The notes under the pieces were generated by a model that had not been told where the DNA came from, ran no database searches, and was given only the letters and a program-made list of their open reading frames with translations. Source: Candidatus Altimarinota bacterium (lineage in GTDB: Bacteria > Patescibacteriota > Gracilibacteria > UBA1369 > 2-02-FULL-48-14). From it: a DNA stretch of 64,000 nt. The position numbers and the translations under genes were made by a program. Shown here one piece after another: positions 8,259 through 29,435 of this stretch. Location of the stretch: positions 32,998-96,997 of the forward strand of contig WFTC01000002.1 of the NCBI GenBank assembly GCA_015485665.1, written 5' to 3'. The first letter of the stretch is position 1. Each line of letters begins with the position of its first letter.

Positions 8259-9581
8259 ATGACTATAGGCATACAGTCTAAGGTGTACGTACTTCCGGAA
8301 ATGTATGGGATAAAGGAACAAAGAATAGTATCACGCCTAAACCTTGATCAGCCGCAAACTGATGGCAGTAATCAAGGTGCGGAAGTGGAAGCGGCAGTAG
8401 TTAAAAACACAAATCACACACCGGCAGACATACAAGCAATAATACAAGATATAAATGCAAAATTAAAAGAAAGAGGCTTACAAGCTGCTACGGAAGAAGT
8501 ATGCCCTGCAGTTGTGGAACAAGATATTCCTCATGGAACAGCAAAAGAATTGGAATATAACTTTTTAAGATATCAAGCAGCTTTAATGGATGTTTTAGGG
8601 GAAATGAATCTTACTCTAATGCCTTTCGGATTGTTACCTTATTCGGGAAGAGAAGAAGCTCAAAGACAAATGTTTGCTGCACTCAAAAGGCACACAGATG
8701 CTTTTTACCGAAAAGTACTTATACCAAGAGATGGAGAAAAAATAAAGGCTCTAACTCATACATCAGGTCTACAAATTCATGTAGAACAAAGACATGGTTT
8801 TACAGCAATAATGACTGTAAGAGCTTTATCTTTATTGTCACCACTATTCATTTCTATCTGGGCAAGTTCACCAATCATAGATGGGTTTTACAGAGGTTAT
8901 AATTCGGAAAGAATGCAGCAAAAAAGCTTATTACCTAATAATTTGACCGGCTTAATTCCGAATGAAGCCGTATCTTCATTTCATTCAATGCAAGATTGGC
9001 TTCAAAGAAATACAAATGATGCAAGATACCGTTCAATTTCACCGGGATATTTCTGGGTAAGACAACCACGAGTCAAACTTGGAACAGTTGAAAATTCAAC
9101 AATGGACATGAATCCGAATGTTGAACTTATCATACTTGGCATGCGCCTTACTTATGCAATTGCAATGGCGGTAGCTCGTGATATGAAAGATAATAAAGGT
9201 CTTCCTGAGGAAATTTTTGGCAGTGGTGACTTAACAGAAAATAATAGAAAATGGGTATATTCTTTAAATGATCAACTTCAAAGAAGTACTAATTTATTTA
9301 ACTACAGATTTACTGACATCAATGGAGTTAATATAAGCGTGCCTCAGTTCCTGAAAAAAGTGATGGATTGGTGTAATTTACCTATAAAAGATCAAAATGC
9401 CTTAATTAACTTTTTAGGTAAAGGTACAATAGCTGAAAGAATACTGCGTAAATTAAATATTCAAACTGGACAGGAAGAAGCAATAACTGGACAGAAAGAA
9501 AAAAGAATGAAAGATGTGTATCTTGAATTTGCCGAGATTTATAAAAATGCAATAACTGAGAAATATAATAAAAATGAATAA
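8259..9581 (+). CDS. Divergent glutamate-cysteine ligase (GCS2/YbdK)-like protein
   Basis: The 440 residues align by eye with carboxylate-amine ligases of the YbdK/GCS2 type. The block SGLQIHVEQRHG corresponds to the family's H-V-H-V-G region and is followed by LSPLFISIWASSP and GYNSERM (family: ALSAxSP...F-x-S-R). Then WVRQPRVKLGTVENSTMD corresponds to the D-x-R-P-x-x-x-GTVE-x-R-x-x-D motif. The family's N-terminal metal-binding GIExE appears here as GIQSK, and the TES motif is also altered, so the usual metal site seems changed. The gene overlaps the next one by eight bases. It may make a gamma-glutamyl-type amide or have lost activity; a fold search is needed to confirm. Confidence 0.55.
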   Translation: MTIGIQSKVYVLPEMYGIKEQRIVSRLNLDQPQTDGSNQGAEVEAAVVKNTNHTPADIQAIIQDINAKLKERGLQAATEEVCPAVVEQDIPHGTAKELEYNFLRYQAALMDVLGEMNLTLMPFGLLPYSGREEAQRQMFAALKRHTDAFYRKVLIPRDGEKIKALTHTSGLQIHVEQRHGFTAIMTVRALSLLSPLFISIWASSPIIDGFYRGYNSERMQQKSLLPNNLTGLIPNEAVSSFHSMQDWLQRNTNDARYRSISPGYFWVRQPRVKLGTVENSTMDMNPNVELIILGMRLTYAIAMAVARDMKDNKGLPEEIFGSGDLTENNRKWVYSLNDQLQRSTNLFNYRFTDINGVNISVPQFLKKVMDWCNLPIKDQNALINFLGKGTIAERILRKLNIQTGQEEAITGQKEKRMKDVYLEFAEIYKNAITEKYNKNE

Positions 9582-10266
9582 AAAGCCTATCATCGGCATT
9601 CTTGCCGCCCGTATGCAATCGGAGCTGGATATACTTGATAAAGTCGCCACAACTTATACCGACTCTATTGTATCTGCTGGAGGCATCCCAATTATATTAA
9701 GCAATATTGCAGCAATACTTCCACACTATATAAAATTGATTGATGGAGTTTTAATGATAGGAGGCAGTCAAGATATTGATCCATCTCTATATAATGAGAA
9801 AAATACAAATTCAAAAGATACAGACATTAAAAAAGACCGTTACGAGCTAAAACTAATCAAAGCATGCATCAATGCCTGTATTCCAATTTTTGGCATTTGC
9901 AGGGGGATGCAGCTCATAAATCTACACTTTGGTGGCAGTCTTATCCAAGACCTTCCAAACAGTCAAATAAATCATCTTCAATACCAAAAACAATTTCAAC
10001 ATGTGCACAAAATCAGCGTTAAAAAGAGTAGAGTTTTACTAAGCAGTGATTACTCGGTCAATTCCGTGCATCATCAAGCCATAAAAAAAACAGGTACAGA
10101 TCTTCAAGTGAGTGCTTACTCCGAAGATGGAATCATTGAAATGATTGAGCATAAATCTTTGCCAATCATAGGAGTACAATGGCATCCTGAATGTCTTTTT
10201 GATGATGAAATTTCTCAACAATTATTTCAATACTTCATAAATCACTCGGCCTCATCCTCAAAATGA
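9574..10266 (+). CDS. Class I glutamine-amidotransferase-like hydrolase (peptidase C26/PuuD-like)
   Basis: The 230 residues form a triad glutamine amidotransferase domain. The nucleophile elbow is FGICRGMQLIN (Cys near residue 109), the GGSQDIDPSLY oxyanion-side motif lies near 66, and the His-Glu pair is in VQWHPE near 202. The sequence NSVHHQAIK also matches gamma-glutamyl-GABA hydrolase and related C26 enzymes, which cut gamma-glutamyl amide bonds. The catalytic residues look intact. Its start lies within the end of the GCS2-like gene, so the two proteins are likely made together as a ligase/hydrolase pair. The substrate is unknown. Confidence 0.85.
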   Translation: MNKKPIIGILAARMQSELDILDKVATTYTDSIVSAGGIPIILSNIAAILPHYIKLIDGVLMIGGSQDIDPSLYNEKNTNSKDTDIKKDRYELKLIKACINACIPIFGICRGMQLINLHFGGSLIQDLPNSQINHLQYQKQFQHVHKISVKKSRVLLSSDYSVNSVHHQAIKKTGTDLQVSAYSEDGIIEMIEHKSLPIIGVQWHPECLFDDEISQQLFQYFINHSASSSK

Positions 10267-16807: not shown

Positions 16808-16855
16808 TATTATAGTTTTTAATGTACTATATAAATGAATATTTACCAAAAAAAT

Positions 16856-17632
16856 ATGAACTCTCAAGAAATACATGCTCAAACAGAAGAATTTGCGAAT
16901 GATGGAGGAGTAAAAGATAGAGTTATAAATCTTGCACAACGCAGATTAAAAAAAGAATTGGCAAGCAATCAAATATCTGCAGCTATGCGAATTATAGCAC
17001 CTTATATTCTGAAGGCACGTGAAGTATCTTTTATTGCAGATAGACATCAAAATCTTATGGATATGCCACAAGAACTTAGAAATGAATTTATAGATAATCT
17101 GGCAAGAGAGACTGTAAATCCAACTTTACTTGATAGACTCAAAAAATCGGCTCTAAAAAGCTTACCCGGCATGCAATTTTTTGTAACTCTTGAAGATGTA
17201 AAAAACGGATCATTGGCAATTATGCTGCTTTCAGGAATGATAGGAGATGAAGAAACTCAAGAACGTTTTGCAACGCATACCAATCCAGGAAAAATTGAAT
17301 TATTAATGCAAAAGGCTTTGCCTTGGCTTGCAAAACTGGATATTGAGCCTGACACTCGCGCTATTCTTGAAATGCTAATCATTGCATTTAAAGCGAAAAC
17401 AGTAACGATAGATGCTTTAAAAAAACTTCGTGAAGAAGTAAAAAAGGCTGAATCTGATCCGGAATCAAGAGCTGCAATCAAAAATACCCTTGAGCAAACA
17501 GAATGTGATGCTAATTATGCAGCTCTTATGCCTGCGACAAACAATAAAAAAACTGCGCCTGAAATTAATATGGATAATTCACTTGGACCTATAAACCATG
17601 ATTTAAAAGAAAGATCAAATCAAGCTGAATAA
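16856..17632 (+). CDS. Helical protein of unknown function
   Basis: The ORF track begins at 16835, but a TACTAT -10-like element ends only four bases before that ATG. I therefore prefer the next in-frame ATG at 16856, giving 258 residues. The protein is soluble and mainly helical, with repeated amphipathic segments. The middle resembles a small TPR/HEAT-like bundle (KSLPGMQFFVTLEDVKNGS, then LLMQKALPWLAKL), and the last 40 residues are disordered and polar. There is no signal peptide or motif that I recognise. It is divergent from the 602-residue gene, so a shared function is possible but unproven. Confidence 0.55.
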   Translation: MNSQEIHAQTEEFANDGGVKDRVINLAQRRLKKELASNQISAAMRIIAPYILKAREVSFIADRHQNLMDMPQELRNEFIDNLARETVNPTLLDRLKKSALKSLPGMQFFVTLEDVKNGSLAIMLLSGMIGDEETQERFATHTNPGKIELLMQKALPWLAKLDIEPDTRAILEMLIIAFKAKTVTIDALKKLREEVKKAESDPESRAAIKNTLEQTECDANYAALMPATNNKKTAPEINMDNSLGPINHDLKERSNQAE

Positions 17633-17701
17633 AAAATAAATGCTCTTTTCAAGAGATATCCAAATCGGTAGAATTGAGACTGACTTAAGCATCTTTCATA
17701 T

Positions 17702-18040
17702 ATGAATTTTCAAGATCTTCGCATCATAGTCGGTCAAATTAAAAAAAATGTAAAATGCCCAAAATGCAATACGCGCTATAATGATCAAGATATTGAATTG
17801 ATAGGAGGGCTCGGAGATGAACAACATTTTTTTCATACAACTTGTTCAAAATGCAATTCTGAATCTATAGTCAACGTAAGCTTGCAAATGAGTGATAATT
17901 TCTTTATTCCAAACGAACTGAAAAAATTAGGTTCAGCTCCACGAATGGGTCATATTTCAGCGGATGAAGTTTTAGATATGCACAATTTTTTGAAAAATTT
18001 TGATGGTGATTTTAATCGCATTTTCAAAAAGACCGACTAA
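17702..18040 (+). CDS. Small zinc-ribbon protein
   Basis: The 112 residues contain two Cys pairs, CPKC near 19-22 and CSKC near 48-51, plus an extra HTTC just before the second pair. This is a typical one-zinc ribbon. The rest is a short beta-rich segment and a C-terminal helix (ADEVLDMHNFLKNFDGDF). Such proteins bind nucleic acid or protein partners; nothing here decides which. It precedes a small lipoprotein gene by 18 bases and may share its transcript. Confidence 0.65.
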   Translation: MNFQDLRIIVGQIKKNVKCPKCNTRYNDQDIELIGGLGDEQHFFHTTCSKCNSESIVNVSLQMSDNFFIPNELKKLGSAPRMGHISADEVLDMHNFLKNFDGDFNRIFKKTD

Positions 18041-18058
18041 ACTTCATCTCGCCAAGCT

Positions 18059-18328
18059 ATGAGAAAGTTTTTATTTCCATTGAGCCTCAGTGTATTGTTT
18101 CTAACTGGCTGCAGCACTTTAAATACTGTAACAACAGAAACAATACAAGCTGTAGAGAATTTAAACAATGAAGCTATTCGCATTAAAAACAATGTCACAA
18201 CTCAAGCGATACAAATACAAGAAGTATATGAGGCTGTAAATGCCGTATTGGATGCAACACAAGAAGCAATGAATAGCATTAATGAAATAAGCGATACAAA
18301 TGAACCACCCATTTCTTCAGAAGATTAA
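18059..18328 (+). CDS. Small predicted lipoprotein
   Basis: The 89-residue product has a clear lipoprotein signal: MRKF, a hydrophobic core and the lipobox LFLTGC at about residues 14-19. The mature part is a single long polar helix rich in Asn, Thr, Glu and Val, of coiled-coil type. It would be anchored to the outer face of the membrane. The last 29 bases overlap the start of pta, so translation of the two may be linked. Its function is unknown. Confidence 0.75.
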   Translation: MRKFLFPLSLSVLFLTGCSTLNTVTTETIQAVENLNNEAIRIKNNVTTQAIQIQEVYEAVNAVLDATQEAMNSINEISDTNEPPISSED

Positions 18329-19235
18329 AAATGAAGCTAAAAAAAATCCATCTCCTATAATTTTTGCAGAGGGAAAAGAAAAAAGAGTAAAAGCTGCAGC
18401 AAAAATAATAGAAAAGGAAGGCTTGGCTGTACCTATTTTATTGGAGGATACACAAAGTCATCCACAATTTGAAAATATGCTAAAGCTCTATAAAAAAATG
18501 CGAAACACATCTGAAGAAGCAGCTTACAAAGCAACATCTGATCCTCATGTTTTATCCGCTTTGCTTGTGAAAAGTGGTGAAGCAAAAGCAATGATTAGCG
18601 GACCGAGCGCATCTTCAAAAGAACGTATCTTGCCTGCTCTTCAAATCATTCGCAGTAAACATGAAAATCATAAAGCATCTTCTTACTTTATAATGTTACT
18701 ACCTGAAACTGTAAATGTTGATGCGGCAAACGGAGGTGTGCTTTTTTTTGCCGATTGTGCTGTAAATGTATCTCCTAGTGTGCAAGAACTGGCTAATATC
18801 GCAATAGATACGGCAGACAGTGCGCAAAGTCTAGGTCTTCAAGCAAAAGTTGCCATGCTGACTTTTTCAACTGAAGGAAGCTCATTACACCCCGCCGTCA
18901 AAAAAGTACGTAAAGCTGCATCATTAATTCATAAAAAACGGTCGGACTTGCAGGTTTCAAATGATATGCAAGCAGATGCAGCACTCATAGATTCAATCGG
19001 TGAATGCAAAGCTCATGAAAATAAAATTGCCGGACATGCAAATGTACTTATATTTCCAAGTCTGGAAGCCGGAAATATAGCATATAAATTGGTTGAAAGA
19101 TTATGCGGAGCAAAAGTTATAGGGCCGGTATTGCAAGGACTAAACAAAACTGTTGCAGAACTTTCACGTGGATCTGACGAAGCAGATATTGTAAACTTGG
19201 CAGCGTTGATCTCTGTCTTAACCTCAAAACAATGA
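18300..19235 (+). CDS. pta: Phosphate acetyltransferase
   Basis: The enzyme interconverts acetyl phosphate and acetyl-CoA. The 311 residues match the short single-domain Pta form. It opens with FLQKIKNEAKKNPSPIIFAEG, then has the VSGPSASSKERILPALQII-like region, NVDAANGGVLFFADCAVN, MLTFSTEGSS and NVLIFPSLEAGNIAYKL. The family member phosphate butyryltransferase is similar, but the phosphoketolase and acetate kinase genes nearby favour acetyl phosphate. It overlaps the lipoprotein gene upstream by 29 bases and the next gene by four (ATGA). Confidence 0.9.
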   Translation: MNHPFLQKIKNEAKKNPSPIIFAEGKEKRVKAAAKIIEKEGLAVPILLEDTQSHPQFENMLKLYKKMRNTSEEAAYKATSDPHVLSALLVKSGEAKAMISGPSASSKERILPALQIIRSKHENHKASSYFIMLLPETVNVDAANGGVLFFADCAVNVSPSVQELANIAIDTADSAQSLGLQAKVAMLTFSTEGSSLHPAVKKVRKAASLIHKKRSDLQVSNDMQADAALIDSIGECKAHENKIAGHANVLIFPSLEAGNIAYKLVERLCGAKVIGPVLQGLNKTVAELSRGSDEADIVNLAALISVLTSKQ

Positions 19236-19645
19236 AAAAAATTGATAAAAAAGTGAAACAAGCTTTCATTGAGCGCTTTGGCAGAGCTCCAAAATATATT
19301 GGATATATTGTTCAAAATGCTAATGGATGGCTTTTTTTTCTTTCGGCAATCGGCGGGCTTACTGGTCTGTTTTTGCAAAAACATTGGATAATTGGAATAT
19401 ATGAAGGACGCTTAAACTTCATTAAAGTCAATCAGTGGAAGAGAGATATACTTCAAGAAGAAAAAATGACCATAAACACAGCTGATATTCAGAAACATAC
19501 AACTCAACAAGTAAGATTCAGACATCACTTCAAACTAAAAATGAAAGACGGTAACATCTTTAATTTTATGATGTATCAAACCAACAGCATTTTATACGGG
19601 CACGCAAATTGCTTGGAAGAAATGGAACAATTATTCCAATCTTAA
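19232..19645 (+). CDS. Small membrane-associated protein of unknown function
   Basis: The product has 137 residues. One hydrophobic segment (GWLFFLSAIGGLTGLFL, near 31-48) is followed by a beta-rich domain with alternating hydrophobic residues (IYEGRLNFIKVN, HHFKLKMKDGNIFNFMMYQ). That pattern resembles bacterial PH-like domains, but the evidence is weak. Its start overlaps the stop of pta by four bases, so it is translated with Pta. It is convergent with ndh. Confidence 0.5.
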   Translation: MKKIDKKVKQAFIERFGRAPKYIGYIVQNANGWLFFLSAIGGLTGLFLQKHWIIGIYEGRLNFIKVNQWKRDILQEEKMTINTADIQKHTTQQVRFRHHFKLKMKDGNIFNFMMYQTNSILYGHANCLEEMEQLFQS

Positions 19646-19649
19646 TGTG

Positions 19650-20921
19650 CTAATCGTCATTTTGCATCCAAATTTCTTTTCCAAGGCGAAATTTTTCCCA
19701 AGCCTTTCTTGGTGGGAGGATACTGAGAGCATATTTAAAGGTGATAATGGGTTTCAAAAAAGGTGTAAAAATATTATTAAAAATTCTCTCTCCACATCTA
19801 AAAAGTGCAAAGTGAAAACCTACAGGCAACACATATAAAAGCTTTCCCATCTTAAATTTTTTAAGCTTACGCCCATTGATAAGTCTCAAAATATTCTCTG
19901 CCACAATATCTCCCTCTTTCATTGCATATTGTGCCATCATTGGCACATAAGAATCTTTATCAGAAGCAACCCGCAATAAGGCACAATCACCAAGTGCAAA
20001 GATATTTTCTTGTTTTATTGCCTGTAAACTTTGATTAAGCAAAATAGCTCCTCCATGTTTTTTATCGCCCAAACTGTCGGCAACTACAGGATTCACTTTC
20101 ACACCACAAGTCCAAATAAGCATGTTGCATCCCAAAGTCAGTAAAATGTCATCACTTTGACGCAAAAGTTTCACTTTATTTCTTAAAACTCTTGAAACTC
20201 TATGCCCCAAATACAACTCAACACCAATTCGTTCAAGTTCTTCCTGAATAGATAAGCTTACTGTCTCATTAAAGCCTGCCAAAGACGAACCAGATTGCAT
20301 TAAACGCACAGTAACTTTACTTCTATCATAATGATATTTTTCACATAATTTATTTAATGTACCCATAAGCTCACCCGCTACTTCCACACCTGTTGCTCCA
20401 CCACCTGCAATACATATATTAATCGGCTCATGTACAATCTGCTCATATCTATCCAAAAAAAGTTTTTCCAGATTACTATTTACAGCCAAAGCATCCTCAA
20501 GGGTTTTAAATGAAAATGCATATTTTTTAGCACCTGCAACATTAAAAAAATTGCTTACACTTCCAAGCGCTACAACCAAAATATCATAACTCAGTGCTTC
20601 ATTATTTTTCAAAACAACACTTTTAATCTTAGTATTAATAGATAACACTTCATCTCTGATGAAAATAACTCTGCGAGTATCTATCAAAGTTCTAATTGGC
20701 GTGGCTATACTATCTTTTAAACGAGCCAAGCAAGATGCACTTATCTTCTTACTGAAAACAGTTGCAACTTGATACAAATCCGGTGTAAAAATGTGCAGAT
20801 AATTTTTATCAAGCAATATGATTTCATAATCAGTCGGTAGAGATTTTTGCAAACGCCTAACGACCCTCATCCCCCCTATACCTGCACCTAAAACAAGAAC
20901 GGTTTTTTTTGTATAAGACAT
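19650..20921 (-). CDS. ndh: Type II NADH dehydrogenase (NDH-2)
   Basis: This is a single-subunit flavoprotein that moves electrons from NADH to quinone without pumping protons. The 423 residues have two dinucleotide-binding motifs: VLVLGAGIGGMRVVRRL at the N-terminus for FAD and ICIAGGGATGVEVAGEL near 165 for NADH. They also have ALGDCALLR near 310 and the AQYAMKEG helix. The C-terminal 60 or so residues are amphipathic or hydrophobic and could bind the membrane. It starts three bases after the phosphoketolase stop, so the pair forms an operon. No terminal oxidase or complex I is seen in the window. Confidence 0.88.
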   Translation of the reverse strand: MSYTKKTVLVLGAGIGGMRVVRRLQKSLPTDYEIILLDKNYLHIFTPDLYQVATVFSKKISASCLARLKDSIATPIRTLIDTRRVIFIRDEVLSINTKIKSVVLKNNEALSYDILVVALGSVSNFFNVAGAKKYAFSFKTLEDALAVNSNLEKLFLDRYEQIVHEPINICIAGGGATGVEVAGELMGTLNKLCEKYHYDRSKVTVRLMQSGSSLAGFNETVSLSIQEELERIGVELYLGHRVSRVLRNKVKLLRQSDDILLTLGCNMLIWTCGVKVNPVVADSLGDKKHGGAILLNQSLQAIKQENIFALGDCALLRVASDKDSYVPMMAQYAMKEGDIVAENILRLINGRKLKKFKMGKLLYVLPVGFHFALFRCGERIFNNIFTPFLKPIITFKYALSILPPRKAWEKFRLGKEIWMQNDD

Positions 20922-20924
20922 AAT

Positions 20925-23309
20925 TTAATCCCTCCACTTCATTGTTTTAACCTCAATGGGATCATCTCCATGCTTGCGTATATAGGCTTGATGCCTATCA
21001 ATCATGGATTGCAATTTTTTAAACATAGACTCACGTTTTTTTGCCACTGTTTTATTAGTTTGAGCAGCTTTATCAATCAAGTCCATTGCCAGATGATAAC
21101 AACTCACTTTATTTGCAACTTTCATATCAAAAGGTGTGGTTGTTGAACCTTCTTCCCTATATCCATGCAAGCTGAACCGCTTGGAGTCAGCAAGAGGCCA
21201 TAGTATTTGCTCTATATCATTCACATAACCATGATAATTGAATACAACAGGTTTATCCTTTGTAAAAAAATATTCTAAAGAGTGAGGACTCATACAACTG
21301 CCTTTATGGGCATAACGGCAATAATCGCCCAAACACAGTGATGTCAATTCCGAAATATTCACATAACGCACTTTTATTTCAGGTGCCATATCTTTAAGCA
21401 TCTTAACCGCAAAAAGAGCTTCTTGAGTAATATAATCTCCGGCGGAAGCCATCACAACATCCGGATTTTCAGAAGCTTCCTCACCCCCTACCCATTCCCA
21501 AATCGCAATCCCGCATTTAGCTTGCTCACGAGCTTCTTCCAAAGTAAGCCATTGAGGTAAATCTCGTTTTCCGGCAACAACAACGCAAATACTGTCTTTA
21601 CGACTCCATATTTCTTCAAGAGCAACAAGCATACTGTTTGCATCTGCAGGATAATAAATTTGACAAAACTCACCATGTTTTTGAAGTACATTACTTACAA
21701 AACTTGGATTTTGATGAGAATAGCCGTTATGATCCTGACGCCACCCAACACTTGATTGCAAATAAAGAGCCGAACTAACCGGTTTGCGCCAATTAACACG
21801 AAAAGCTTGCTTTAAGAATTTCGCATACTGATCCACCATACTTGTAATAATTGTTGTAAAAGCTTCATAACTGACAAACAATCCATGTCTGCCGGTTAAT
21901 AAATAACCCATATACCACCCTTGCAATGTATGCTCACTAAGCATCTCCATAACTCTTCCTTCAGGATCCATGTGCTCATCATTTTTGGCTAAAGGCCACA
22001 TAAAAGCTCGCTCCGTCGCTTCAAAAACTGCACTCAGTTTATTTGACTCCAATTCATCGGGACAAAATAACCTGAAATTCTTTTTATTAGACTTATAAAT
22101 ATCTCTAATCATCTGTCCTGCTTGTTTCAAACTGCTTGCACGCAAAGTTCCACGCTCAGAAGTATCCACATTTACAGCATACTTATTCAAGCTTGGCAGT
22201 TTTAACTCTTTCAAGATATTGCCCCCGATAGTATGCTTATTCATCCCCATACGCAGTGCACCTCTCGGAACAAATTCCATCACTTCATCTGAAGGTCCTC
22301 CTTTTGCGTTCAACAATTTATGAATTTTATAACTTTTAAGCCATTTTTCAATAGCCTTCAAAGCTTCAGGATCATTTTTTGGATGAGTAACAGGAATACC
22401 ATGCGCATGAAAAGAATTCTCAATAGCAATTCCATGCAATTTTTTAATGCCTCGCCAACCTTTTGGAGAACGAAGCAAAATCACAGGCATTTTTGGTTTA
22501 AGCAAAGACTTTTTTGAAAATCGTGCACACTCTTGCACACGACGGATCTGTTGATAAGATTTCTCAAGTGCAGACATCATGGATCGTCCCATAAAATGCC
22601 CTGAAACAATATATGGTGTATATCCAAGACCTACAAAATAAGATTTTATTTCACTATCGGACATACGTCCAAAAAGAGTTGGATTGGATATTTTATAACC
22701 GTTAATATGCACAATCGGTAAAACGGCACCACAAGTTTTCGGGTTCATAAATTTATTGCTCTGCCAAGCAGCTGCAATAGGTCCTGTTTCCGATTCTCCG
22801 TCTCCTATAACAACCGCCGCAATTAAATCCGGATTATCCATAACAGCTCCATAAGCAGTGGACAAACTGTAACCAAGCTCACCCCCTTCCAAAATAGAAC
22901 CCGGAACAGTGGGAGTCACATGACTCGGAAATGGCGAATGAGGCCAACTGAAATCTTTAACCAAAGCTCCAAATCCTTTTTTATCATGAGTATATTGCTT
23001 GTAAAAAGCATGCATGGTTTTTTCGGTATATAAATTTGCCAAAACGGAAGGTGCACCATGACCGGGACCAGCTATAAACAGCATTTTACATTGATGCTTA
23101 CATATAAGATAATTTAACTGCGCATAAATAAAGTTTAATCCAGGTACAGTACCCCAATGCCCCAAAATACGCTCTTTAAAATGTTCCAACTTCAAAGGTT
23201 TTTCCAATAAAAAATTGTCTTTCAAATAAAGCTGCGCTGCTCCCATATAATCAACGTAGCGTAGATATTTTTTGAGCCATTTAAGAGCTCTGGAATCGGT
23301 ACTGACCAT
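20925..23309 (-). CDS. xfp: Phosphoketolase (xylulose-5-P/fructose-6-P)
   Basis: This thiamine-diphosphate enzyme cleaves xylulose 5-phosphate (and often fructose 6-phosphate) with phosphate to give acetyl phosphate. At 794 residues it is full length. It shows GHWGTVPGLNFIYAQLN near 50, AGPGHGAPSVLANLY, the ThDP-binding VIGDGESETGPIAAAWQSN near 170, HINGYKISNPT, SSVGWRQDHNGYSHQNP near 560, and a C-terminal transketolase-like domain. It has its own promoter and an mRNA leader of only about nine bases. ndh follows in the same operon. Confidence 0.96.
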   Translation of the reverse strand: MVSTDSRALKWLKKYLRYVDYMGAAQLYLKDNFLLEKPLKLEHFKERILGHWGTVPGLNFIYAQLNYLICKHQCKMLFIAGPGHGAPSVLANLYTEKTMHAFYKQYTHDKKGFGALVKDFSWPHSPFPSHVTPTVPGSILEGGELGYSLSTAYGAVMDNPDLIAAVVIGDGESETGPIAAAWQSNKFMNPKTCGAVLPIVHINGYKISNPTLFGRMSDSEIKSYFVGLGYTPYIVSGHFMGRSMMSALEKSYQQIRRVQECARFSKKSLLKPKMPVILLRSPKGWRGIKKLHGIAIENSFHAHGIPVTHPKNDPEALKAIEKWLKSYKIHKLLNAKGGPSDEVMEFVPRGALRMGMNKHTIGGNILKELKLPSLNKYAVNVDTSERGTLRASSLKQAGQMIRDIYKSNKKNFRLFCPDELESNKLSAVFEATERAFMWPLAKNDEHMDPEGRVMEMLSEHTLQGWYMGYLLTGRHGLFVSYEAFTTIITSMVDQYAKFLKQAFRVNWRKPVSSALYLQSSVGWRQDHNGYSHQNPSFVSNVLQKHGEFCQIYYPADANSMLVALEEIWSRKDSICVVVAGKRDLPQWLTLEEAREQAKCGIAIWEWVGGEEASENPDVVMASAGDYITQEALFAVKMLKDMAPEIKVRYVNISELTSLCLGDYCRYAHKGSCMSPHSLEYFFTKDKPVVFNYHGYVNDIEQILWPLADSKRFSLHGYREEGSTTTPFDMKVANKVSCYHLAMDLIDKAAQTNKTVAKKRESMFKKLQSMIDRHQAYIRKHGDDPIEVKTMKWRD

Positions 23310-23324
23310 GGCATGGTGGATTAA

Positions 23325-23353
23325 TTTATATCCATAATAAAGAACAGGTTCAA
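23325..23353 (-). promoter_or_regulatory. Promoter of the xfp-ndh operon
   Basis: On the minus strand TTGAAC and TATAAA are separated by 17 bp. The -10 lies about 16 bases before the xfp ATG, giving a leader of roughly nine nucleotides without a Shine-Dalgarno sequence. Confidence 0.65.
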
Positions 23354-23516
23354 TCTTGGCAAACCAACAAAATACTTGACAAAAATTACAATCAGGAGGA
23401 AAATCGGCACACTTATATCAAAAAAATATGTTGCCATCCAGCACAACTCAACTGCAAAGAAGCACAATTCTAGCTGCTTTTTGGGTGGTAAACATTATTC
23501 TATACGTCTTTACCTA

Positions 23517-23574
23517 AGCGCCACGTTACAAGAAAATGTAACTTTTGGCGCTCTGAGTGAAGAGCTGCTTTTTT
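23517..23574 (+). promoter_or_regulatory. Strong hairpin in the leader before the ATP-grasp gene
   Basis: AGCGCCA and TGGCGCT (7 bp) plus an inner GTTACA and TGTAAC (6 bp) form a two-part stem at 23517-23552 with a loop AGAAAA. About 17 bases later comes a T-run (CTGCTTTTTT) that ends 22 bases before the ATP-grasp start. It could be a terminator/attenuator or a structured leader. The rest of the 286-base gap holds no gene I can support. Confidence 0.5.
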
Positions 23575-23595
23575 AATTACTAAACACAATTCTAT

Positions 23596-25416
23596 ATGAG
23601 CATAGAAATATCATCACATTCAATCAATACACCAATCAATACAACACATGCTCCAATCACAGCAAATATTGAAACAAGAAGTCAAATAATAGATATAAAC
23701 TTAAAAAGGAACATGGAGGATGCCCTAAATGAAATTTTAGAAGATTTACATATGACTCAGGAAGAAAAAGTTGCGTTTAAAACAGAATTCAATACTTTAA
23801 CTGATTATTTACAAGGTAATGCAAAGCGGATCCGAAATCATGCTGCAGATTTCATCAAAGATATGATTGGACGCTTTGATGAAAATCAAAATAATGCGCC
23901 GGAAAATAATGCGCCGGAAAGTCATGGAATTAATGCAAATAATGATATATTTGATAATCTTGCATTACTGATAAGCAATATTGTTGAAGAGATAATTGGC
24001 CCGAACAATCACTTGCTTGGTTTGTTTGCATATGAATTACGGCAAATATTAATTGCCAATGAAGATACTATTGTGCCTGTTTCAAGAATCTGGCGTGTAA
24101 CAGAACATGATGCCGAAAAACATGCAGAGTGTGTTTATGACATGACCGCTTATGCCAAAGAACTTATTGCATATTGGGAAAGTCTTGGTTTTCCTAATGT
24201 GATTAGAGAGGAAAATTTAATTCCTATAGATTACGTCTTATCTGAGGATAATAATTTAATGACAACTCTCTCAAGTTTAGAAGATGAAGATGAAATATTC
24301 AGAGCTATAAAAAGCAAAATAAATGAAGGAGACGAGGGTCGTTTGATTGCATTTATAAACACATTCACAATTGAAAGAATTGCTCGTCTAATGAAGCTAA
24401 AGACAGATCGATCTGTAAGTGTTACGGAAAGTATGAATAACAAAGGGCAATTCTTAGCTGCCTTGAGTAAAAATGGTGTAAGCTCTCCAATCAATATTCG
24501 CATCCAGAGTTTAGTTCAAGCATTTATAGCCGCCTGCATGATTCAATACAAAGTAACAGGTAAAATAGATATAAACGCAGATATGGGTGCCAGATTAAAG
24601 TTTAATAGAGGTGCTTCAGGTTATGGCAACTTAGCTGAAAGCACACTCTTACAACTATTAAAAGTGCTAGTAAAGAAAAATGCCTACTTGCATGAAGTTA
24701 AAAATGGACATGGCGCCTCAATAATGGAATGGGTAGAGTTTGATGAATCTCCAGGTGTATTGTTACATATAGGAAGATCTCCTCATGCAGACCGTGTTCT
24801 GGGTATTGCAGAGCAAGTATTAAAAGAAACTGTCTATGTTGGAAGTCTCGGTTGCACTAATATTGATCTTTTGGAGGAGAAATATCCGGGGATAAAAGAA
24901 TATATTCAGAATCTTTGCAATGCACTACGTCAACAAGGTTCTTTTGGCTTTCAAGGTATAGATTTGGTGGTGAAAAACAATAAAAACGAAGAAAATGGAG
25001 AAAATACTTTGGAGATTAAAGCAATTGAAAACAATTGTCGCCTCACCGGTCAAACTCATGTTGCATATATAGCATCCAAACTTGGATTTGAATTTTACGG
25101 TGTACACAATAGCGTAGTTGTTCCAAAGAATATGCCATTGCAAGAGTTTATAAATTTACTTCAAAAGCAAAACATCCATTATGAACCTCATAAAGGAGGT
25201 ATATTTGTCACTAATCATAGCAATGCTAGAAACGGGAGAATGATGATTGGTATACTTGCAAGGAACAAAGGTGATCTTGATAGATTCTTTCAAGAAGTAA
25301 TGGAAATTTCAAAGAAATATGCAAGTAATCCTGAAACCACTACACCGGAAAATCAAGTTGATAACTGTATAAATATAACTCGTGAAGAATTATTGAGTTT
25401 AATAAATATAAAATAA
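23596..25416 (+). CDS. ATP-grasp carboxylate-amine ligase-like protein
   Basis: The protein has 606 residues. The N-terminal 270 or so are helical, charged and not recognised. From about 280 it reads as an ATP-grasp enzyme: NNKGQFLAALSKNGV, the glycine-rich ATP loop LKFNRGASGYGNLAES near 335, the hinge-like IMEWVEF, and FGFQGIDLVV leading to the metal-site block LEIKAIENNCRLTGQTH near 490. ATP-grasp enzymes join a carboxylate to an amine via an acyl phosphate. The closest resemblance is to peptide ligases of the PGM1 type. An AstE/AspA-like deacylase follows after 57 bases. Its substrates are unknown. Confidence 0.72.
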   Translation: MSIEISSHSINTPINTTHAPITANIETRSQIIDINLKRNMEDALNEILEDLHMTQEEKVAFKTEFNTLTDYLQGNAKRIRNHAADFIKDMIGRFDENQNNAPENNAPESHGINANNDIFDNLALLISNIVEEIIGPNNHLLGLFAYELRQILIANEDTIVPVSRIWRVTEHDAEKHAECVYDMTAYAKELIAYWESLGFPNVIREENLIPIDYVLSEDNNLMTTLSSLEDEDEIFRAIKSKINEGDEGRLIAFINTFTIERIARLMKLKTDRSVSVTESMNNKGQFLAALSKNGVSSPINIRIQSLVQAFIAACMIQYKVTGKIDINADMGARLKFNRGASGYGNLAESTLLQLLKVLVKKNAYLHEVKNGHGASIMEWVEFDESPGVLLHIGRSPHADRVLGIAEQVLKETVYVGSLGCTNIDLLEEKYPGIKEYIQNLCNALRQQGSFGFQGIDLVVKNNKNEENGENTLEIKAIENNCRLTGQTHVAYIASKLGFEFYGVHNSVVVPKNMPLQEFINLLQKQNIHYEPHKGGIFVTNHSNARNGRMMIGILARNKGDLDRFFQEVMEISKKYASNPETTTPENQVDNCINITREELLSLINIK

Positions 25417-25456
25417 TAAAAATTCACACTGAAACAATTTCCAAAACATTAAATAA

Positions 25457-25462
25457 TATAAT
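25457..25462 (+). promoter_or_regulatory. Possible -10 element before the deacylase gene
   Basis: A perfect TATAAT lies 11 bases before the ATG, but no -35 is visible and the region is very AT-rich. The gene may be read either from here or from the upstream ATP-grasp gene. Confidence 0.3.
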
Positions 25463-25473
25463 AAACTTACAAT

Positions 25474-26340
25474 ATGATAGAAGGATTGAGAACAATAAAA
25501 GGAAAATCAGATGGACCAAAAGTGGTGATAATCGCCAGTATTCATGGCAATGAACCTGCCGGAATGGCTGCATACGCACTATTGAAACGATATTTTATTG
25601 ATGAAGGCAATGAACTTGTAAAAGGTGAAATACGTCTTTTGAAGGGTAATATTAAAGCAAGGGAAAAAGGTGTGCGCTTTCTTAAGTATGACTTAAATCG
25701 TATGTTTTTTGATGAATATCCTCAAGGGATTGATCAAAATTCTTACGAATATCAAAGAGCTCAAGAAATAAAAAAAACAATAGAGGGTGCAAACTACATC
25801 CTTGATTTACATTCAACAACATCGGAAAGTGAGCCTTTCAGTATATTGGCTGATAGACACGCAAATTACTCTGATGCAATCATGAATATTCCGGTTGCAT
25901 TTACATCTGACGGATGGGGTAGTTTCTTAAAAGGTCCATTAATGAACTGGGTTATTCCGAGAGGAATGGAATATGTTGCGGTGGAATGTGGAATGAATGA
26001 TACGAAAAGTGCAGATGAAACAGCCAGAAAAGTAGCTATGGCATTTCTTAACTCACTGGGCATGAGTAATTTTAATATCCAATTTGATCGCCCTAAAAAA
26101 CATCTTAAACTACTTGACTGCATCAGTGTGGAAGACTACAAAAGTTATTATTATCCGGAAGGACACTTCGCTTCTTTTGATAAGCTGGAAGCAAATCAAC
26201 TCATTGCAAAAGATGCAAAAAGAGAATACAGAGCTCCAAACATGGATAATTTGGTAATAATCATGCCTGGCTCTGAAGAGAGCATAAGACAAGGAGTAAA
26301 TAAAGACGCTTACTTTTTGGGTCAGTTTGTAGATCTCTGA
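25474..26340 (+). CDS. Zinc deacylase/carboxypeptidase, succinylglutamate desuccinylase/aspartoacylase (AstE/AspA) family
   Basis: The 288 residues carry the M14-type zinc site: IASIHGNEPAG (H-x-x-E) near 22-30 and the later His in ILDLHSTTSES near 110. Also present are the family's KYDLNRMF substrate-binding motif near 75 and the general-base Glu in VAVECGMND near 172. Known members remove an N-acyl group from an amino acid (N-acetylaspartate, N-succinylglutamate). The site looks complete. It follows the ATP-grasp ligase gene and precedes ackA by 30 bases. The acyl group removed is not known. Confidence 0.85.
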   Translation: MIEGLRTIKGKSDGPKVVIIASIHGNEPAGMAAYALLKRYFIDEGNELVKGEIRLLKGNIKAREKGVRFLKYDLNRMFFDEYPQGIDQNSYEYQRAQEIKKTIEGANYILDLHSTTSESEPFSILADRHANYSDAIMNIPVAFTSDGWGSFLKGPLMNWVIPRGMEYVAVECGMNDTKSADETARKVAMAFLNSLGMSNFNIQFDRPKKHLKLLDCISVEDYKSYYYPEGHFASFDKLEANQLIAKDAKREYRAPNMDNLVIIMPGSEESIRQGVNKDAYFLGQFVDL

Positions 26341-26370
26341 TAAAATACAAGAGCGCATCACTTTGACCTT

Positions 26371-27528
26371 ATGATTCTCACAATAAATGCAGGCTCTTCA
26401 TCTCTTCGCTTCAGTCTTTTTGATGGAAATCTAAATCAAATATACAAAGCTCACATAGATGCAATAGCACAAAAAAATTGCATATATAAAGCATACTATG
26501 ACAAAGGAAAAGAAGAAGTTTTTGCAATTAAAGTCAAAGATCATAAAAAAGCAATTCTTTTTGCCTTGGAAGAATTAAATACGAAAAAGCTGATAGAGAA
26601 CAAGAATGCAATACAGATGGTTGCACATAGAGTAGTACATGGAGGAGAAAAATTCAAAAAACCGGCAAAACTTAATCTTTCAAGCATAAGAAGTATTAAA
26701 AAATTGTCAGCACTGGCACCACTGCACAATCCCGCAAATTTAGCAGGAATAAAAGCAGCAAAAAAAGCTCTCCCAAAATCAACTCATTGGGCGGTATTTG
26801 ACACATCTTTTCATTCTACTTTACCTGAACATGCATATCTTTACGGTCTCCCATACTCTCTCTACAAAAAACAAGGTATTCGCAGATACGGTTTTCATGG
26901 CAGTAGCCACAAATACGTTTCTCAACGTGCCACCGAAATTTTAAAACAAAAAAAATTGAAATTAATTACATGCCACATGGGCAATGGCGTGAGTATCGCA
27001 GCAGTAAAAAACGGAATATGCAAAGATACATCCATGGGATTCACTCCACTTGAAGGACCAATGATGGGTACACGTTCAGGAAGTTTTGATCCTGCAATTA
27101 TTTTTCATTTAGCGGAAAAAAAATCACTTGAAAGCATTGAGAGAATCGTTCAAAAAAAATCAGGATTTTTAGGCTTATCAACTCTAAGTTCAGATGTAAG
27201 AGAACTGAAAAAAAACATGAAAAGCAAAAATACCACTCGCTGTTTTTCTCTATTTAGCTATCAAGTGGCAAAACTTATTTTAAGCTATTGCGCAGCATTG
27301 AATGGAGCGCCTGATGCCATTGTTTTTACAGCTGGCATAGGGGAAAATGCATATTATTTGAGAGAAAGTATCTGCAAACATCTATCTGTATTGAACGTAA
27401 GATTAAGCAAAGCTAAAAACAAAGCAAACGCCTCAGTGATATCTTCACCTGCATCAAGTGTAAAAGTGCTTGTCATACCAACTAACGAAGAACTGCAGAT
27501 GGCAACAGAAATAAAAGCACTCAGTTAA
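26371..27528 (+). CDS. ackA: Acetate kinase
   Basis: The enzyme makes acetate and ATP from acetyl phosphate and ADP. The 385 residues have the two family signatures, ILTINAGSSSLRFSLFD at the start and YGFHGSSHKYVSQRA near 175. They also have VAHRVVHGGE near 88, the catalytic-Arg-containing FDTSFH/GTRSG segments and FTAGIGENA near 320. The length is slightly below the usual 400. With phosphoketolase and Pta it completes acetyl-phosphate use. A TAAAAT with TTGGGT 18 bp upstream may drive it separately, but read-through from the deacylase gene is equally possible. Confidence 0.96.
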   Translation: MILTINAGSSSLRFSLFDGNLNQIYKAHIDAIAQKNCIYKAYYDKGKEEVFAIKVKDHKKAILFALEELNTKKLIENKNAIQMVAHRVVHGGEKFKKPAKLNLSSIRSIKKLSALAPLHNPANLAGIKAAKKALPKSTHWAVFDTSFHSTLPEHAYLYGLPYSLYKKQGIRRYGFHGSSHKYVSQRATEILKQKKLKLITCHMGNGVSIAAVKNGICKDTSMGFTPLEGPMMGTRSGSFDPAIIFHLAEKKSLESIERIVQKKSGFLGLSTLSSDVRELKKNMKSKNTTRCFSLFSYQVAKLILSYCAALNGAPDAIVFTAGIGENAYYLRESICKHLSVLNVRLSKAKNKANASVISSPASSVKVLVIPTNEELQMATEIKALS

Positions 27529-29435
27529 AGCTCATACAGCGCTTGTGTTGTAGATATTACAAGTACATTTCTGTCTTTATCCATATATAAGTCAGTGAGC
27601 CTACCCTTTAAATTTTCAAAGACATATTGTTGACTGTAAGTAATATCATTTGAACGTCCGCTTTTGTCATAAATTAAAATCCTGTTTCTATCCGGATCCA
27701 AAACATAAATTTGAGAAATTTCCAATTCAGTATAAATATCACTTGCCCCTTCAAGAGAAGTAATTGGGGCTTTTAATATGTTAAAATCCACCTTCTCACC
27801 GCTTAAGAGCCTTAAAATTGACCCATCTTCATTCAAAAGCCACACGCTGCCGTCAATTGCCATTGAAATTGCATTTGAAATATCAATATCTTCACTCAAA
27901 TAAGGCAGGGCAGAGCCATAAGAATTTGTGCCGCGAGTATATTTCCAAATCTCCCCTTCTTCAGGATCAAGAAGATAAATTCTTGATGAATAGCTTGCCA
28001 CATCCACTGCGAATTTAAAACTTCCATCAGCCGTATCTGCAAACTGTGCATTGCCATCTGCATATTCAATTACATTCCCTTCATCTGTAACATAGACTAT
28101 TAAATCTCTATCTTTAAAATATGCCCCTGCCCGCACCTGCTCACGAGCATCCAAAATATCCGGCTCTTGAACATCCCCAAGCAATACCTGATAAGCTTCA
28201 TTTGCAGTGTAAACAACAAGCCTGTCACTCACAGGTTGAACTCCAACAATCTCCGAATCACCCAAGAAATCGGAAAAATCTGCAAGCAAATTTATCCCAT
28301 CATCCATAACTTTTATGTTATCAAGAAAATTGCGCTGCTCACGAATATCATCCAATAATTGACTGGCAGGACCTCCAAAATAACCGGAATCAAGCACTTC
28401 AATTGCAAAAGCTTCTGCCTCAGACAAGAGCTCTCGCGCCTCATTTTTATCAAAAGCACCCCGAGTTGCCGCTTGCGTAACATTATCTTCCGCAATTTTA
28501 AGTTTGGACTCCAAATCTTCCAATTTTTTAGTACGAGTCAAACTTACATTCAAGACAAAAACTCCCACAAACAACAGTCCAAGCACAGCACTGATTGCGG
28601 TAATCAAACGCTTCCTGTCCCAAGCTTTTATACGATTCAGATAAGCCCATCGTTCTTTCTTAAGCAGCCATTTTCTGAGCACAGCCAAAGATTTTTCCAA
28701 AGTTTTTTTATCTGAATATAAATTCGTAGTCGGATCTACATTTATACCGTCAGACTGCACATTTACAGGTACATGAGATTTTTCCAAAACTTCAAAACTC
28801 AACAAAGCAATTTGATCTTCCAAGTCTTGATTTAAAAGCTCCGACAATTCCTTCACCGCATTTTGCAAATTTTCTTCAGTAAAAATTTTAGAAAGATCAC
28901 TTGGTGTTATGTATTTGACCAAGTTGCCGGTTGCAAATATCACACTATCGCCAACCTCCAATAAACCACTTGCAATATTCTGAAACAGATCTTCTTTGCT
29001 TAATTGATCGGAAAGTCCGTCCGTAATTGAACTGACATGACGCTTACGCAATAAATAACCTTGTGCAGCACCCCTTTGTGACAAAAACAACATATCTTTT
29101 TGAATCACTCCAGCAACAACATTCATATTTGGAATGAACTTCAAATCCAATTCCTTCTCCTTTTCATGTACCATCAAATTTATTTCTTGCAAAGCAGCTT
29201 CAAATCTATCATAAGGATCACCTGTCAGATCATCCAAAAAATGATCTTGCAAAAGTTGAAATGCCTCCTTGCCGATCTCAGACCCTGGAACTTGTGTGCT
29301 GTCAATGGAAAGCAAAAAAAACAAAGATATTTTTTCTTTACCAAGACCGTCATCCCATTCAGTGTAATAATGCTTGATAAAGCCTGTAGGTCTGCGACCA
29401 ATAAGAGTGGACTGTTGTTGAAGTTCCAGATACAT
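27525..29435 (-). CDS. Membrane protein with degenerate PP2C-like domain and C-terminal beta-propeller
   Basis: Residues 1-230 of 636 resemble a PP2C/SpoIIE phosphatase fold: NVVAGVIQKDMLFLSQRG, then SITDGLSDQLSKED and LLEVGDSVIFATGNLV. The family's metal-binding Asp positions are largely replaced (for example ATGN where SDG is expected), so it is probably inactive. A membrane helix lies near 275-297, a coiled coil near 300-345, and then about 270 residues of repeated strands ending in YVTDEGNVIEY- and YVLDPDRNRILIYDKSG-like motifs, as in propellers. It ends four bases into ackA (convergent). Confidence 0.6.
   Translation of the reverse strand: MYLELQQQSTLIGRRPTGFIKHYYTEWDDGLGKEKISLFFLLSIDSTQVPGSEIGKEAFQLLQDHFLDDLTGDPYDRFEAALQEINLMVHEKEKELDLKFIPNMNVVAGVIQKDMLFLSQRGAAQGYLLRKRHVSSITDGLSDQLSKEDLFQNIASGLLEVGDSVIFATGNLVKYITPSDLSKIFTEENLQNAVKELSELLNQDLEDQIALLSFEVLEKSHVPVNVQSDGINVDPTTNLYSDKKTLEKSLAVLRKWLLKKERWAYLNRIKAWDRKRLITAISAVLGLLFVGVFVLNVSLTRTKKLEDLESKLKIAEDNVTQAATRGAFDKNEARELLSEAEAFAIEVLDSGYFGGPASQLLDDIREQRNFLDNIKVMDDGINLLADFSDFLGDSEIVGVQPVSDRLVVYTANEAYQVLLGDVQEPDILDAREQVRAGAYFKDRDLIVYVTDEGNVIEYADGNAQFADTADGSFKFAVDVASYSSRIYLLDPEEGEIWKYTRGTNSYGSALPYLSEDIDISNAISMAIDGSVWLLNEDGSILRLLSGEKVDFNILKAPITSLEGASDIYTELEISQIYVLDPDRNRILIYDKSGRSNDITYSQQYVFENLKGRLTDLYMDKDRNVLVISTTQALYEL

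Follow-up and report, generated by a model that had tools for sequence, protein, structure and literature searches.

ATP-grasp proteins encoded beside a protein that cuts peptides or amides have been described as the RimK-RimB system and in the RloABC operon of Pseudomonas aeruginosa, where RloC is 24% identical to RimK and cleavage is the task of a secreted aspartic protease (PMC12239564). The gene pair analysed here resembles these systems in that an ATP-grasp gene shares an apparent operon with a peptide or amide cutter, but its cutter is a zinc deacylase with no obvious signal peptide and it has no membrane partner (no 7TM_transglut match was found beside it among the Pfam-scanned genes at 16835-29435). 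Among relatives of the ligase in the phylum, the likeness to RloABC extends to 7TM_transglut neighbours in two loci only, L061 (4884-10514) and L157 (573-5084), where a PGM1-like ligase adjoins a membrane protein with PKD and 7TM_transglut domains that recalls RloB; in L061 this protein is followed by a further ATP-grasp-like gene, recognised by eye. Amide-forming and amide-cutting genes also lie side by side in PuuA-PuuD, another ligase/hydrolase couple. Its gene layout is like that of the pair although the enzyme folds differ, and the same is true of a second couple within the window (the whole stretch of 64,000 nucleotides that was analysed), formed by a YbdK/GCS2-type carboxylate-amine ligase (8259-9581) that overlaps a C26 gamma-glutamyl-hydrolase-like gene (9574-10266). 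This second couple, already pointed out in an earlier note on this DNA, is real; the two genes are also neighbours in another genome (G007, contig C6), with C26 proteins that are 48% identical, and the GCS2 gene occurs in 2 of the 89 genomes of the order. A limited literature search found no paper mentioning both ATP-grasp and succinylglutamate desuccinylase, nor a published description of the ligase-deacylase pair.

The window belongs to an assembly of 860 kb from Candidatus Altimarinota bacterium. The order of this genome includes Candidatus Peregrinibacteria bacterium SI047_bin117 (locus L064), and code-25 genomes of Gracilibacteria type occur in the same class; in one code-25 locus (L112, 921-2198) the ligase frame contains one internal TAA. 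Both open reading frames of the pair were confirmed, and the features of the locus, all on the plus strand except the first, are:

20925-23309, minus strand, divergent: phosphoketolase, upstream neighbour of the ligase
23596-25416, plus strand: predicted ATP-grasp amide (peptide) ligase of the PGM1/BesA/LdmS group, 606 residues (ORF, profile, Foldseek)
23596-23949, plus strand: ligase residues 1-118, extension (AF2 pLDDT by block; mostly a gap in relatives)
23950-24408, plus strand: ligase residues ~119-271, pre-ATP-grasp-like (alignment with relatives; Foldseek)
24607-24630, plus strand: RGASGYGN, putative nucleotide-binding loop, residues 338-345 (conservation in 22 relatives)
25027-25059, plus strand: ENNCRLTGQTH, putative metal/phosphate block, residues 478-488 (conservation in 22 relatives)
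25474-26340, plus strand: predicted AstE/AspA-type zinc amidohydrolase, 288 residues (PF24827, human aspartoacylase, Foldseek)
25543-25554, plus strand: HGNE, predicted zinc ligands H24 and E27
25675-25701, plus strand: R68 and N75-R76 (RFLKYDLNR), alignment equivalents of aspartoacylase TRYIDCDLNR
25810-25812, plus strand: H113, predicted third zinc ligand
25984-25986, plus strand: E171, expected catalytic glutamate (ECG)
26371-27528, plus strand: acetate kinase (ackA), downstream neighbour of the deacylase

The arrangement that the earlier note had described, with both reading frames, their motifs and a position between phosphoketolase and acetate kinase, is borne out. The ligase is separated from the deacylase by 57 bp and the deacylase from ackA by 30 bp, a spacing compatible with a single transcript, and a consensus scan (weak evidence by nature) found no terminator-like sites between the three genes.

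Taken alone, the ligase gives a weak ATP-grasp match in Pfam (E = 0.047, under the cut-off) and no match in NCBIfam. It was therefore the alignments, one with 4 homologues from the same order and one of 22 sequences, and the predicted structure that placed it. The profile of 22 relatives matched in the PDB BesA (8yi6, 3e-25), the Streptomyces ATP-grasp peptide ligase 8ynd (8e-22), 7r8p (3e-21) and PGM1 (3wvq, 5e-16); 7r8p/7r8q is SAOUHSC_02373, which we take to be the L-aspartate--L-methionine ligase LdmS. The NCBIfam models of LdmS and BesA are matched by 11 and 10 of the 22 relatives, respectively, and the Pfam domains PF18604 (PreAtp-grasp) and PF18105 (PGM1_C) by 6 and 2; the window ligase itself reaches neither Pfam domain, although its corresponding region aligns with the relatives and the fold matches. 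The AF2 model (pLDDT 77, pTM 0.77) has 8ynd as its best Foldseek match (7e-19), and ranks 1-20 are taken by 8ynd/8ynq, 8yi6, 3wvq/3wvr and 7r8q in alignments of ~490 columns, which span whole PGM1-type chains at 12-16% identity. Because the profile and the predicted fold agree, the assignment of the 606-residue protein to the ATP-grasp fold is secure, and the core that the earlier note had read from motifs is recovered by structure prediction. A RimK-like affiliation, which that note had set against a PGM1-like one, was rejected since PGM1, BesA and LdmS come first by both profile and fold.

With these enzymes and 8ynd the ligase shares, besides the fold, what looks like the pre-ATP-grasp plus ATP-grasp layout, and the metal/phosphate residues: the conserved E-x-N-x-R residues are present as E478, N480 and R482, which align with the E-N-R of BesA, PGM1 and 8ynd in HMMER alignments, N480 and R482 being invariant across the 22 relatives and K335, G342 and G344 invariant or nearly so. 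It differs from them, in addition to the low identity, in its zinc deacylase neighbour and in an extra N-terminal extension of 118 residues. The N-terminal 270 residues had been considered unrecognised; this holds for residues 1-118, which are modelled with low to moderate confidence (helices at 34-50 and 55-94), and lack a counterpart in the relatives, but not for residues ~120-270, which align with the pre-ATP-grasp region of this group. As fold and profile group the protein with enzymes that join free amino acids, it probably forms an amide bond between two small molecules.

The second protein matches PF24827 (1e-17, 64.7 bits against a curated cut-off of 25) and human aspartoacylase (5e-6), and its best Foldseek match is DoeB/EutE (4e-15), followed by AstE, ASPA and CphZ. 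With these members of the AstE/AspA family it shares the catalytic domain and the active-site residues, and the set claimed in the earlier note (H-x-x-E, H and ECG) is complete and conserved in homologues: H24, E27 and H113 are invariant in both deacylase alignments, and E171 is invariant in one and nearly so in the other. N75-R76, the equivalent of an asparagine-arginine motif that presumably binds the substrate carboxylate in aspartoacylase, is invariant in both alignments and R68 in the first. The deacylase probably cuts amide bonds, to judge from these residues and the fold. It scores, however, far under the NCBIfam equivalog cut-offs (62.6 against 180 for aspartoacylase, 44.9 against 305.65 for AstE), so that its substrate is not readable from the sequence and its specificity, by this measure, is that of none of the named equivalogs. 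Within the order, the relatives of the deacylase mostly lie elsewhere in the genome, unpaired; in four loci (L036, L040, L041 and L042) an AspA-like deacylase is found between argB-like and argH-like genes (named by eye), and it may serve as an acetylornithine deacetylase in place of ArgE.

The neighbourhoods of ligase homologues were surveyed at class level in a set of 643 ORFs, with the window deacylase picked as probe before the neighbours were looked at. The probe has three relatives in this set and each lies directly downstream of a ligase (L112, L115 and L119; gaps of -11, 2 and 9 bp). This corresponds to 3 of the 33 ligases that are closely followed by a gene on the same strand, against 0 of 204 control genes, i.e., other genes of the same loci (p = 0.0025). 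A more distant AspA-type protein occupies the same slot in L055, so the two families, which the earlier note had allowed might never be neighbours in homologues, do recur together. In further loci the slot downstream of the ligase holds other amide hydrolases, namely M20 (L045, L046, L052, L060 and L117, with an M20 domain fused to the ligase in L062), Asparaginase_2 (L056 and L063), GATase/C26 (L114, L116 and L120), FGase (L104), C39 (L053) and, in one case, a beta-lactamase-like protein. Taken together, an amide hydrolase fills the slot in 17/33 ligases and in 2/204 controls, a difference that is strong in direction and carries no exact probability, the hydrolase labels having been set post hoc and related genomes being included. 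A fresh sample of the phylum, small as it is (12 loci), points in the same direction, with C39, M20 and a weak NlpC/P60 match in the slot; it also contains one arginine deiminase ~145 bp downstream of a ligase. The pairing of ligase and deacylase exceeds chance.

It could still be argued that the gene order is largely fortuitous, with a ligase of general amino-acid use and a deacylase for scavenging that have come to lie in one operon in certain lineages. Ligase homologues often have no hydrolase beside them (L047, L048, L054, L059, L098, L102 and L148), approximately half of the genes close behind a ligase encode something other than a hydrolase, and the deacylase relatives within the order are, as said, mostly unpaired; the ligase homologues of the order are themselves patchy, and neither the family nor the order of this genome yielded an ortholog of the window pair. 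We nevertheless give this explanation rather little credence against the difference between 17/33 and 2/204, the independent pairings and the gene fusion in L062. Carriers of the ligase are a minority of the sampled genomes spread over many genera (24/380 in the phylum sample at E 1e-20; 47/353 in the class at E 1e-12); a profile scan of genome contigs yielded no locus beyond the Peregrinibacteria one already found, and a scan of viral contigs gave no match.

Several other arrangements were observed around PGM1-like ligases. In a sub-group (L106-L111) the downstream slot is occupied by a PLP decarboxylase instead of a hydrolase, and L100, L107-L111 and L049 share a conserved cluster of 2-4 ATP-grasp ligases, a PLP decarboxylase and a protein of ~800 residues, which in L107 and L111 itself gives a weak match to the ligase profile; a dipeptide epimerase-like gene, recognised by eye, is added in L049 and L106. 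This cluster looks like a peptide metabolite pathway. A D-Ala-D-Ala-ligase-like gene (a label with a Pfam basis in L149 only) accompanies a PGM1-like ligase and a C39 peptidase in two genera (L053, 5994-8863; L149, 3535-6389), and an arginase-family gene lies on the opposite strand beside the ligase in two families (L146, 2242-3129; L147, 3630-4496).

The explanation that we favour, with a probability of about 0.55, is that ligase and hydrolase work as a module on one small amide, which is built up and then released. The ATP-grasp enzyme would spend ATP on activating a small molecule, probably an amino acid, at its carboxylate and would join it to the amino group of an amino acid whose own carboxylate stays free, giving a dipeptide or an N-acyl amino acid; the AstE/AspA-type zinc enzyme would hydrolyse this product, or something closely derived from it, and the compound could thus be accumulated and later freed again. 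The adjacency, the single fusion and the exchange of hydrolase families lead us to infer that the two enzymes share one compound and serve its turnover. Synthesis and turnover of an N-acyl amino acid or small peptide had been proposed in the earlier note, and the proposal is strengthened by the unrelated amide hydrolases found at this position beside relatives of the ligase. By eye, neither protein carries an obvious signal for secretion; without regulation, making and cutting the amide in the same compartment would therefore waste ATP. A compatible solute, a reserve, a signal or an antimetabolite are candidate roles for the compound. In a broader and more tentative version, which is possible yet doubtful, this would be a widespread and so far undescribed amide-cycling module of Patescibacteria, in which a PGM1-like ligase makes a dipeptide or N-acyl amino acid particular to the lineage, perhaps through a beta or gamma linkage, and an interchangeable hydrolase, drawn from one of five or more unrelated families, cuts the bond again.

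The two enzymes could instead act in sequence, the deacylase freeing the amino group of an N-acyl amino acid of external origin or from another pathway and the ligase using it for a different product. The best fold matches (DoeB, AstE and ASPA) do act on N-acyl amino acids, and the same-order deacylases between argB-like and argH-like genes look biosynthetic. This order of events appears unlikely, given that the partner is swapped among Asparaginase_2, C26, FGase and M20 enzymes, whose typical substrates are very different, and that such swaps fit a match to the product of each ligase at least as well as a common precursor. C26-type and M20-type enzymes are the hydrolases of the routes through gamma-glutamylated putrescine and the LysW carrier. 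Their presence beside ligases, and the match of the window's own C26 gene to the gamma-glutamyl-GABA hydrolase model (1e-31, under the curated cut-off), would agree with a protecting-group chemistry in the style of these routes, in which a group put on by the ligase would be taken off by the hydrolase once a third enzyme has modified the intermediate; with no further route enzyme lying between the two genes in the window, L112, L115 or L119, we regard such a chemistry as improbable.

In the ligase tree, which has long branches and several joins flagged as unsure, AspA-paired ligases appear in four places, and descent of the five AspA-paired loci from one ancestral ligase-AspA pair was rejected with a constrained tree (p = 2e-74); the association therefore probably arose, or was exchanged, more than once. 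A clade of the window, L112, L119 and the unpaired L059 was not rejected (p = 0.059), and thus the window pair may share its origin with that of L112 and L119. The deacylase tree is weakly resolved and adds nothing on the origin of the pair.

The earlier note had also suggested, as a speculation, that acetate released by an aspartoacylase could feed the adjacent acetate kinase. The start of ackA lies 30 bp past the deacylase, with the phosphoketolase and a phosphate acetyltransferase-like gene nearby; these genes, however, make sense together as a route from phosphoketolase to acetate, with no need of the pair. This link is unsupported, and to us very unlikely, because no ackA or phosphoketolase homologue was found among the 643 ORFs around other ligases.

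Both enzymes come from known families, and what appears to be undescribed, within a limited literature search, is the recurrent coupling of a PGM1-like ligase to an interchangeable hydrolase in Patescibacteria. The recurrence of amide-cutting partners, often from unrelated families, suggests an unrecognised small-molecule cycle in the phylum. These bacteria have very small genomes and few biosynthetic genes, yet a minority of the genomes sampled keep the ligase, often with a hydrolase beside it. The Asparaginase_2, C26, FGase and AspA partners may each hint at a particular type of amide and so narrow the chemistry. If it is true that the module makes and frees one compound, the identity of that compound would be a concrete piece of physiology for a large uncultured group.
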